This document shows positions 50,537-57,502 of a stretch of DNA of 64,000 nucleotides, piece after piece. A program made the position numbers and the translations under genes. Each line of letters opens with the position of its first letter. Position 1 is the stretch's first letter. This stretch comes from Clostridiales bacterium (GTDB lineage: Bacteria > Bacillota > Sulfobacillia > RBS10-35): contig JAHHQG010000025.1 in assembly GCA_018729555.1 (NCBI GenBank), positions 62,001 through 126,000 on the forward strand. Direction: 5' to 3'. The notes below the pieces were generated by a model, which saw only the letters and a program-made list of their open reading frames with translations, was not told the DNA's origin and did no database searches.

Positions 50537-50570
50537 GGTCGTGTCAAGAGTTTTGTGTAAGGGTCTGTGT
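50537..50570. repeat. Left terminal inverted repeat of the IS
   Basis: Starts GGTCGTGT and contains TGTGTAAGGGTCTGTGT at 50554-50570, matching the right repeat in about 27 of 34 positions. The end of the transposase gene lies within it. Confidence 0.85.
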
Positions 50571-51641
50571 ACGGGGGGCATACCGCTCCAGAAGCATCTT
50601 CTCCAGCACCTCCTTCACTTCGGCAAAGCCCTTAAGCCTCCTCTCCGCCCACCTCCCTTCCTGCCTCTCTGACTCCAAGTAAAGAAGCTTGTACACCGCC
50701 TCTTCCTTGGGAAACTTGTGGTCCCGCACCTTCGTTCCCCGCCGCACCTCCCGGATAAACCGCTCCATCAGGTTGGTGCTCCGCAAGTACGGCCACAGCT
50801 CCTTGGGGTACCCGTAGAAGCGCAGGAAGGCCCCCGAGTCCTGCACCCATAGCCCCACCACCCCCGGGTACCGCGATCCCCAGGCCGCCTTCACCTCGTC
50901 AAGGGCCCGCAGGGCCTCTCCCCGACTCTCCGCCCCGTACACCCGCCTCAGATCGTGGGCCAACAAAGCCCGGTCCCGCGCCCGCACCTGGGATAGGCTC
51001 CACCGCACCCCGTGCACCACCCACCGCTGCCACTCCGCCTGAGGGTAGACCCTGCGGATGGCTTCAGGAAGCCCGGGTAGCCCGTCGGTGACGAAGAGCA
51101 GGACCCGCCGCAAGCCCCTTTGCCAAAGCTCCCCCAAGACCCCCTCCCACCCCAGGGCGCTCTCCGTGGGCAGGAGCCAGAACCCCAAGACCCGCCTCTC
51201 CCCACCAGGGGCGATCCCCAGGGCCACGTACACGGTTTCCCGCACGATCCCTTCTCCTTCCCTAAAGACCTTTAGGGAAAGCCCGTCCAGGTAGACAAAG
51301 GCCATCTCTTCGGGCAAAAGCCGCCTGCGGAAGGCTTCCGCCGCCTTGCGCTGGCTGACCCCGGCAGCGTACAAGGCCACGGCCACTTCTCCCACGTCCA
51401 CCAGGCGGCGGGCGTAGGGCTTAAGAAAGGCGGGGTAGTACCGGCCTTCCCGGTCCCTGGGGACCTTCAGGTCCACCTGGCCGAAGGCGGTCTCCAGCTT
51501 CCTGGGGTAGTAGCCGTTCCTGCGGCCCCCGTGCGCCTGCAAGAACGCCGTCCGGTCCAGCTCCATAACCATCTGGAGGACCTCGGTCACCGTTTCCCGC
51601 ACCGCTTCCCTCAGCAAGCTCCGCAAGGTATCCTGGTCCAC
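50544..51641 (-). CDS. IS256-family transposase (mutator type)
   Basis: A 365-residue DDE transposase. The N-terminal part has RNGYYPRKLETAFGQVDLKVPRDREG (in part), typical of the family; the catalytic Asp residues are in FVYLDGLSLKV and LFVTDGLPGLPEAI, and the C-terminal part with STNLMERFIREVRRGTKV holds the catalytic Glu. The start is set at GTG 51641, which follows AGGAGGTGCCCC; an upstream GTG at 51683 lies in the right inverted repeat and would add 14 residues. The gene looks intact and possibly active. Confidence 0.94.
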   Translation of the reverse strand: MDQDTLRSLLREAVRETVTEVLQMVMELDRTAFLQAHGGRRNGYYPRKLETAFGQVDLKVPRDREGRYYPAFLKPYARRLVDVGEVAVALYAAGVSQRKAAEAFRRRLLPEEMAFVYLDGLSLKVFREGEGIVRETVYVALGIAPGGERRVLGFWLLPTESALGWEGVLGELWQRGLRRVLLFVTDGLPGLPEAIRRVYPQAEWQRWVVHGVRWSLSQVRARDRALLAHDLRRVYGAESRGEALRALDEVKAAWGSRYPGVVGLWVQDSGAFLRFYGYPKELWPYLRSTNLMERFIREVRRGTKVRDHKFPKEEAVYKLLYLESERQEGRWAERRLKGFAEVKEVLEKMLLERYAPRTQTLTQNS

Positions 51642-51679
51642 GGGGCACCTCCTCGTTCCAAGGTGTGCCCCCCTATTAA

Positions 51680-51713
51680 ACACGGACCCTTACACAGAAT
51701 TCCTTACACGACC
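51680..51713. repeat. Right terminal inverted repeat of the IS
   Basis: Reverse complement begins GGTCGTGT and continues to TGTGTAAGGGTCCGTGT (51696-51680), the partner of the left repeat; followed by the AAAGGAC duplication at 51714-51720. Confidence 0.85.
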
Positions 51714-55240: not shown

Positions 55241-55303
55241 AGGAATCGGAGGCGCCTCAGCCGAAAGAGGTCATCACCCGATGACCGTCCGAGGAGGGAC
55301 TCC

Positions 55304-56986
55304 GTGCCGAAGAAGCTCATTTCCTTTCTGGGGACCCAGGATTATAAGAAAGTCACTTACATCTGGGGCGAGGAAACCCTTCCCCCCACCCGGTTCATCC
55401 AGGAAGCCCTTTTCCGCGTCCTGGCTCGGGATTGGGGCCCTGGCGACCAGGTGGTGATCCTCCTCACGGAGGAAGCCCGGGAAAAGAACTTTCCAGCCCT
55501 CAAAGAAGCCCTGGAGGCTGCCTTTCGGGAGGCGGGGATCCAAGGAAACTTAAAGGATGTGTCCATCTCGGCGGACGAAAGCGAAGAGGGTCTCTGGGAT
55601 CTCTACGGGACCCTTCTTCCCTTGCTGAAAGAGGGGGATCATCTCTTTTTTGACGTCACCCACGGCTTTCGCTTCTTATCCCTCTTTGCCTACGGCGTTG
55701 TGGAATACGGCCGGGTGTTGAAACGAGCCCAAGTGGGGGGCATCTACTACGGCCTCTTACGCCGCGGCGAGGAGACCCATCCCCATCCCATCGTCGATCT
55801 TACCCCTCTGGTGCGCCTCCTGGACTGGGCCCATGGCACCCGTACCTACCTTCAGACGGGCGATGCCCGTCCCCTCGAGGAAAGCGTCCGGTCCGTAGCA
55901 AGAGAGGTCTTTACCGGTCGGAAAGCCGCCGATCGCCGGGCGGTGGAGGCGCAAAAGAACCTGGTGAGGGACCTGAAGAACTTCCACGAGAACATGGCCA
56001 CCTGCCGCACCCTCCTCCTTCCCGAAAACGTGGCCAGCATCCAGATGAGGCTGAAGGAAAGCCAAGATCTCTCCCTCGACATCTTTCCCCTCCTGGACCC
56101 CCTCCTGGAAGAGATCCGCGAAGAGTTCGCCCGGGTGGCGGAGGACATCGCCGCGGAGCGCCCCCTCTCCCAGATCGGTTGGGGAGCTGCAAGGTGGTGT
56201 AAGGACCATGGCCTCATCCAGCAGGCCTACACCTTCCTGGTGGAGGCCATCTACAGCAAAGGGGCGGAATTCCTGGGGTTAGATCCCAGGAAGAAGGAGG
56301 ATCGGGAGCGGGCTAGCCAGGCCATTAACGCCTTTACAGGCCGCCGCGGGAAGGTCTCCCCCAACCGGCAAGATCATCCCATGGCCCCCCTGGGGGAGCT
56401 CATCAACCAAACTTTTTCCCGCATCGTCGATACCCGCAATGCCATCAACCACGGAAACATTACCCAGCAAACGACCAGCAGCGACAATCTGATGCGGCAG
56501 CTGGAGGAGGATCTGGAGAATGCCCGCCGGCTCATGGCCGCCATGGAGGCGGCTCTCCCTGCGGGTAAGCCGCCTTCCTATGCGCCGCGCCTCCTCATCC
56601 TCCTCTCCCATCGCCTCCTTCCCCAGCAGGAGGCCGATGCCCGGGAGAGCCTGGGGGTGACGGCCTTCACCTACCTCCCTGACCCCCTGCAATCCCTCTG
56701 GTCCCAGATCGATCCTTCCCTGGAAGAGCTGGAGGAGTTCCTCCAACCCATCGGCCGCTGGCTGGAGGAAGAAGGTCAGCCCGGCGACTACGTCCTCATC
56801 CAGGGGGAGTATGGCGCCACCGTCTGGGCCATCGGCAAGGCCCGCGCCCTGGGCCTCATCCCGGTGTATGCCACCACCCGGCGGGAGGTGGTCACGGAAG
56901 AAGGGGACGATGGCCAGGTGGTGAAAAAGGCGGTCTTTCGCCATGTGCGCTTTCGCCTGTACCCCAACCTGGGGGCCTCCCTCTGA
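55304..56986 (+). CDS. CARF-HEPN CRISPR-associated protein (Csx1/Csx2, TM1812-like) fused to a Csx20-like C-terminal domain
   Basis: A 560-residue protein in three parts. Residues 1-155 form a CARF domain of the TM1812 type, with KLISFLGTQDY, PPTRFIQEAL, FDVTHGFR (116-123) and GIYYGLL. Residues about 180-415 are helical and contain the HEPN RNase motif R378-N-A-I-N-H383. Residues about 425-556 are an additional alpha/beta domain (LLILLSHRLL, TYLPDPLQSLWSQI, GDYVLIQGEYGATVWAIGKA, LIPVYATTRR, HVRFRLY) that resembles the small Csx20 family, proposed to be CARF-related ring nucleases. CARF proteins sense cyclic oligoadenylate from type III CRISPR systems and then cut RNA. GTG at 55304 follows GAGGAGGGAC. 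No cas10, other cas gene or CRISPR array is in the window. Confidence 0.82.
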   Translation: MPKKLISFLGTQDYKKVTYIWGEETLPPTRFIQEALFRVLARDWGPGDQVVILLTEEAREKNFPALKEALEAAFREAGIQGNLKDVSISADESEEGLWDLYGTLLPLLKEGDHLFFDVTHGFRFLSLFAYGVVEYGRVLKRAQVGGIYYGLLRRGEETHPHPIVDLTPLVRLLDWAHGTRTYLQTGDARPLEESVRSVAREVFTGRKAADRRAVEAQKNLVRDLKNFHENMATCRTLLLPENVASIQMRLKESQDLSLDIFPLLDPLLEEIREEFARVAEDIAAERPLSQIGWGAARWCKDHGLIQQAYTFLVEAIYSKGAEFLGLDPRKKEDRERASQAINAFTGRRGKVSPNRQDHPMAPLGELINQTFSRIVDTRNAINHGNITQQTTSSDNLMRQLEEDLENARRLMAAMEAALPAGKPPSYAPRLLILLSHRLLPQQEADARESLGVTAFTYLPDPLQSLWSQIDPSLEELEEFLQPIGRWLEEEGQPGDYVLIQGEYGATVWAIGKARALGLIPVYATTRREVVTEEGDDGQVVKKAVFRHVRFRLYPNLGASL

Positions 56987-57110
56987 GGGCTTGGGGGGCT
57001 GCGGGGGTCCGGGTGGGGGTCGGGGAGGAAGAGCTTCTGGCCCACGCCCTGGGGCGCCTGGCTGAACGCCGGGATGTCCCTCCGGTGAACGCTCCATCTC
57101 TCTACCGGAC

Positions 57111-57138
57111 GGAACCTTGGGGAGACACCCAAGGTTCC
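57111..57138. repeat. Perfect 11-bp hairpin inside the folK remnant
   Basis: GGAACCTTGGG (57111-57121), loop GAGACA, CCCAAGGTTCC (57128-57138). It spans the junction between recognisable folK sequence and the foreign insert. A second small palindrome TATCCC-AAC-GGGATA lies at 57160-57174. Confidence 0.7.
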
Positions 57139-57220
57139 CGTTCCGCAACTCATAGACAAATATCCCAACGGGATACCGTTCCGGTTGCTTCCTGCTTCAT
57201 CGGCGGGGTGCTCGTAGACC

Positions 57221-57242
57221 GGGTTGCTGGCAACCCCTTTTT
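57221..57242 (+). terminator. Terminator-like hairpin at the end of the folK insert
   Basis: GGGTTG-CTGG-CAACCC followed by CTTTTT. It could end transcripts from the CARF gene, but the T-run also encodes the FL of the FLNA remnant, so it may be accidental. Confidence 0.4.
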
Positions 57243-57502
57243 GAACGCCCCCTGGAGCTGCAGACATCCCTTCCCATCGGGAAAGGGCCCTGGAAGTCCC
57301 CTATCCCGTCTCCGGGACGGGCCTTACCTCCTGGGTGCCCCTGGCGGAGGCGGCCTCCGATCTCCCGGAGGGGGACCCCCTGGGATATCTCCTAGAACTG
57401 GACTTTAAACACGTCATGAGGCAAAAGGGCCCGCCTTGGTTCAGGAGGATTTCCCCTTCCGAAGGCGAATGAAGGTGCCAAATCCCCAAAAGGTGTGAGG
57501 TT

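Follow-up and report, generated by a model that had tools for sequence, protein, structure and literature searches.

A protein of 560 amino acids, encoded on the forward strand at 55304–56986 of the analysed window (the whole stretch of DNA studied, 64,000 nucleotides in length), combines a CARF sensor, a HEPN ribonuclease and a predicted Csx20 ring nuclease. Judged from its sequence, it is best read, with a probability of roughly 0.85, as an ancillary effector of the organism's own type III-B CRISPR system that would be activated by cyclic tetra-adenylate (cA4) and limited in its activity by its own Csx20 domain. This type of fusion is known and already catalogued.

Reading frame and domain architecture

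The gene was identified by its open reading frame (ORF), by a match to the PADLOC model PDLC01843 and by its dN/dS ratio. The ORF is intact, with a GTG start, 560 codons and no internal stops, and a ribosome-binding-site-like sequence, GAGGAGG, is located 5' of the start codon (55292–55298, forward strand); the start context VxKKLISFLG is common to the window fusion and its counterpart in a relative of the same genus. The PADLOC model CARF2--CARF_HEPN_CSX20 (PDLC01843) was matched from end to end (residues 1–553 of 560 versus model positions 1–498 of 498; 6.4e-109), which places all three domains, CARF then HEPN then Csx20, on one chain. The AF2 model of the full-length fusion reached a pLDDT of 82.

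The CARF (TM1812/TIGR02221) sensor domain comprises residues 4–193 (55313–55882, forward strand), for which the NCBIfam model TIGR02221 scored 108.9 bits (curated cut-off 76.25). The DxTHG motif model (TIGR02549) was matched by residues 114–138 with 29.5 bits (cut-off 21), and the motif itself, FDVTHGFR (residues 116–123; 55649–55672, forward strand), was located by this model and by alignment, with D117, T119, H120 and R123 invariant in six fused proteins. The helical and HEPN ribonuclease region spans about residues 194–418 (55883–56557, forward strand), as delimited by the PADLOC Csx1 models and an all-helical AF2 model. It was covered by the PADLOC CARF_HEPN and Csx1 models (1e-89 to 1e-66), and the Pfam HEPN models gave only sub-threshold matches on the fusion. 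Its active-site motif R378-N-A-I-N-H383 (R-x4-H; 56435–56452, forward strand) was identified by alignment of the fused proteins, among all six of which R378, N379, I381, N382 and H383 are invariant. The sensor and ribonuclease motifs that an earlier note on this DNA had read from the letters were thus both recovered by these models and alignments. The end of the HEPN region and a variable linker occupy about residues 405–428 (56516–56587, forward strand; defined by identity and dN/dS).

The predicted Csx20 ring-nuclease domain (residues 430–553; 56591–56962, forward strand) was delimited by the NCBIfam model NF040559, by alignment and by AF2 modelling. The earlier note had proposed an extra, Csx20-like domain at the C-terminus, and NF040559 was indeed matched over its full profile (positions 1–124 of 124; 7.7e-41) with 139.3 bits, about twice the curated cut-off of 70. 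As a sequence match this is far beyond chance, and it rules out an unrelated C-terminal fold, the outcome named in the note as counter-evidence. In an alignment of 27 rows (the window domain plus the sequences of five further fusions and 21 stand-alone Csx20 proteins), every invariant Csx20 column was kept in the window domain (H436, Q442, L462, W466, G501, G504, A505, Y522, R527, F545 and H547). A domain scan assigned no Pfam family to the C-terminus, and PDB sequences gave no significant match when searched with it; no solved Csx20 structure was found. The full-length AF2 model had the Csx1-Crn2 protein of Marinitoga as its best PDB match (E 1.4e-15; structures of the Marinitoga sp. protein are 8y6z and 8y7g). 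For the model of the Csx20 domain by itself (pLDDT 93), Foldseek placed the Crn1-type proteins Sso2081 and Sis0455 among the top matches, with TM values of 0.40–0.49 and no PDB structure at E ≤ 0.001; since the Crn1-type matches had weak E values of about 0.01–0.02, the fold evidence for the isolated domain is suggestive.

Proposed mechanism

In the proposed mechanism, the Cas10/Cmr2 protein encoded on contig C50 of the same assembly would make cA4 once the Cmr complex meets its target RNA. Binding of cA4 to the CARF domain, probably as a dimer, would then turn on the HEPN RNase (R378/H383), which is predicted to cut RNA non-specifically. The C-terminal Csx20 domain would compete for cA4 and cleave it, and by removing cA4 it would limit the RNase response in time. 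Because the sole Csx20 of the genome sits in the fusion, this domain could also switch off a plain Csx1 that is encoded elsewhere in the genome. We infer cA4 rather than cA6 as the ligand from knowledge of the family. The fusion is presumed to be linked in function to the Cmr operon, although the two lie far apart.

The prediction of an RNase that is activated by cA4 and limits itself is well supported, because the domains and active motifs are conserved, stand-alone Csx20 cleaves cA4 and Csx1-Crn2 is the best PDB match of the fusion. A representative stand-alone Csx20 degraded cA4 fully at 1 μM enzyme, and Csx20 was found to prefer cA4 and to be strongly associated with Csx1 (PMC12409355). 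The RNase of Csx1-Crn2 is activated by cA4, which the C-terminal domain of the same protein removes; the binding sites compete for cA4, and Csx1-Crn2 was suggested to switch off the second effector of Marinitoga as well (PMC7293037). Together with the domains present, these precedents leave the self-limiting RNase of the earlier note standing as the best inference.

The domain might instead bind cyclic oligoadenylate without cleaving it and act as a sponge or as an additional allosteric sensor by which the HEPN RNase is tuned. Sequence does not separate binding from catalysis, and a related candidate, Csx15, was nearly devoid of ring-nuclease activity when first assayed, so that a role as a sponge was considered for it (PMC12409355), but Csx15 is called a ring nuclease in the title of a later publication (PMC13148439). 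As the window domain also keeps all residues that are invariant across the 27 Csx20 proteins and is as conserved as CARF between genus members, we regard a non-cleaving Csx20 as improbable and cleavage of cA4 as the preferred reading.

CRISPR machinery and genomic context

The fusion gene lies neither inside nor beside a cas operon or array. Ancillary proteins of type III systems are usually, if not strictly necessarily, encoded in or beside one. No other Cas family was detected by PADLOC among the 70 ORFs of the 64-kb window, and neither a CRISPR array nor degenerate CRISPR repeats were found within it. Single PADLOC matches among the window ORFs (mad3, mad8 and AriA) most likely represent generic enzymes, not defence systems. 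The earlier note's remark that there was no cas gene or array around the fusion thus holds for the window but not for the genome, in which a type III-B Cmr operon and arrays were found, one of the arrays 1.9 kb before the first base of the window on the same contig.

The start of contig C50 carries cmr6 (cut), cmr5, cmr4, cmr1, cmr3 and cmr2/cas10, a type III-B operon that is cut at the contig end and whose Cas10/Cmr2 contains the cyclase motif SGGDD (GGDD). The assembly is 7% contaminated; however, both the first part of cmr2 and the adjacent copA/ABC genes have counterparts at 71–80% nucleotide identity in the genus relative, so that contamination is an unlikely source of the Cmr contig and the system is most likely the organism's own. 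A 37-nt CRISPR repeat, GTTTCAATAAAGCCGGGTC[AC]GCTGACCCGGTTGCTAC, forms arrays at C18:59.7–60.1 kb and C19:416.8 kb, of which the former is the nearest found on the contig of the window and lies 57 kb from the fusion gene; two diverged copies of the repeat are located at C18:342.2 kb. The repeat was not found in the genus relative. Two further cas1 loci, recognised by profile, are present in the same assembly. To judge from the sizes and order of their genes, L011 (G000:C48) is apparently type I-C-like and L012 (G000:C36) apparently type I-E-like; L012 also has arrays of the repeat GGTCGATCCCCGCGCACGCGGGGGAGAC. Csx20 is present once in the genome, inside the fusion, and a plain Csx1 of 425 amino acids with the motifs DITHSFR and RNALNH is encoded at G000:C18:45677–46954.

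The lack of a type III system anywhere in the genome, which the earlier note had held to count against its proposal, was not observed: a GGDD Cas10 and arrays were found by searches of the genome and in selected stretches of it. The Cmr operon with its GGDD Cas10 rules out an orphan system without type III CRISPR. Given the type III-B locus and the arrays, the fusion is an effector encoded away from the genome's cas operon and not a CRISPR-free system.

In the other genome of the genus that was examined (G001), the fusion is 66% identical and has the same neighbours, namely a gene for an SLH-domain protein upstream (at a distance of 63 bp in the window) and genes for a CoA-transferase and two AMP-ligases downstream. 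In both genomes the fusion gene is far from any cas gene, as far as the contigs extend, so that its co-regulation with Cmr is no more than conjectural. Within the window, the fusion and the CoA-transferase gene are separated by a short ORF (57013–57408) that appeared folK (HPPK)-like at its start by eye and had no Pfam match, and a terminator-like hairpin is located at 57221–57236.

The shared non-cas neighbours, and a window without any other Cas family, would also fit an orphan effector that answers another signal, be it a different cyclic nucleotide or the product of a non-CRISPR cyclase, and is for this reason distant from cas genes. We consider this very unlikely, given that a type III-B Cas10 is present in both genus genomes, that most related fusions are located in type III operons and that Csx20 prefers cA4 (PMC12409355); moreover, type III effectors could work remotely because their signal diffuses.

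Conservation and selection

The fusion and its active motifs are conserved in G001. The dN/dS ratio between the two genes was 0.29 overall and 0.20, 0.34 and 0.29 for the CARF domain, the HEPN region and the Csx20 domain, respectively; each domain is under purifying selection between genus members. The linker had 25% identity and a dN/dS of 0.59, compared to 57–77% identity in the domains. Although the gene is remote from cas genes and has a Mutator/IS256-type transposase gene 3.6 kb upstream, a decaying relic, mis-joined or non-functional and kept by chance, is hardly credible in view of a frame without stops, intact motifs, a dN/dS of 0.29 and a conserved copy between the same neighbours in the genus relative.

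Distribution and origin of the fusion

Among 398 genomes sampled from the phylum, 28 encoded Csx20 above the curated cut-off, and 5 of these 28, the window genome included, had fused frames (564–607 amino acids). The Csx20 fusion, taken for novel in the earlier note, therefore recurs in the phylum and is covered by an existing PADLOC model (PDLC01843). The four other fused proteins had CARF and Csx20 domains above cut-off and the invariant R and H of HEPN. Of their genes, one closes a cmr operon, two lie beside csm operons and one lies beside a CRISPR array, such that three of the four adjoin Cas10 operons of type III-A or III-B, whereas the window fusion is encoded away from cas genes. At L070, a cmr operon with a CARF-HEPN-Csx20 fusion also encodes a protein that weakly matched the ring-nuclease model NF040951 (L070:4443–5552; 45 bits versus a cut-off of 600), possibly bringing two signal erasers together. 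Beside a type III-like operon at L078 (G370:C17, 8622–12884), two adjacent frames of 788 and 632 amino acids gave weak CARF-HEPN profile matches, and the first has at its end a degenerate, Csx20-like segment that scored 29 bits, under the cut-off; this pair is possibly a diverged second fusion type.

In many genomes, stand-alone csx20 and csx1 are separate genes that adjoin or overlap, with csx20 mostly downstream of csx1 (L081, L082, L083, L088, L091 and L092) and sometimes upstream (L080, L085, L090 and a Persicobacter plasmid). Loss of the stop codon between such neighbours would yield a fusion. In the CARF-HEPN tree, the window fusion and that of the genus relative joined their own plain Csx1 paralogue (97/98), apart from the other fusions, and a single clade of all fused proteins was rejected (p-AU 0.017, on a tree with long branches and G+C-driven composition). 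In the tree of the short Csx20 domain, a single fused clade was not rejected (p-AU 0.307). The sequences thus suggest repeated fusion of CARF-HEPN proteins with Csx20, which is favoured over a single fusion followed by losses. It is conceivable, if rather doubtful, that in addition to repeated capture of Csx20 the fusion moved off the cas operon in this genus and became a genome-wide cA4 switch acting in trans, restraining both itself and the plain Csx1.

A mobile or phage origin was rejected, as none of 50,697 phage records matched the fusion and its plasmid matches were below 33% identity, save one short Csx20 match at 45%. Two copies of the Mutator/IS256-type transposase gene, 91–97% identical, are located 3.6 kb upstream of the fused csx1 gene (50544–51683 of the window) and 1.5 kb from the plain one (G000:C18:42966–44173), and a gene for an SLH-domain protein adjoins both csx1 genes; this pairing is possibly an old segmental duplication.

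Comparison with known systems

The whole architecture of the window fusion is identical to that of the catalogued CARF-HEPN-Csx20 type (PDLC01843). The PADLOC model for it was presumably derived from the CARF classification of Makarova et al. 2020. In the searched literature naming Csx20, no experimental description of such a fusion was found, and the only fused effector and ring nuclease found described with biochemistry was Csx1-Crn2. The 2025 census of ring nucleases limited its candidates to 250 amino acids, so that fused Csx20 proteins are outside its counts (PMC12409355). The joining of effector and eraser fixes alarm response and alarm removal at a ratio of 1:1, so that the timing logic of type III CRISPR signalling could be tested with a single polypeptide. 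The plain Csx1 that occurs naturally alongside it in this genome would make the fusion a useful test case.

Plain Csx1 proteins (TIGR02221/CARF-HEPN), such as this paralogue, have sensor and RNase parts like those of the fusion but lack the Csx20 domain; the paralogue is about 30% identical to the fusion. Stand-alone Csx20 (NF040559), for a representative of which cA4 cleavage was demonstrated (PMC12409355), has the same domain and all invariant residues but, unlike the fusion, is a separate protein of 130–140 amino acids, often encoded next to csx1. Csx1-Crn2 of Marinitoga piezophila likewise carries CARF-HEPN and a C-terminal cA4 ring nuclease on one chain, and the self-limiting logic proposed here for the window fusion was demonstrated in vitro for that protein (PMC7293037). 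The two share about 14–16% identity overall and differ in the ring nuclease, which is Crn2 (DUF1874) in the former and Csx20, described as derived Rossmann/CARF-like (PMC12409355), in the latter, whose C-terminus had no Crn2 match in the domain scan.
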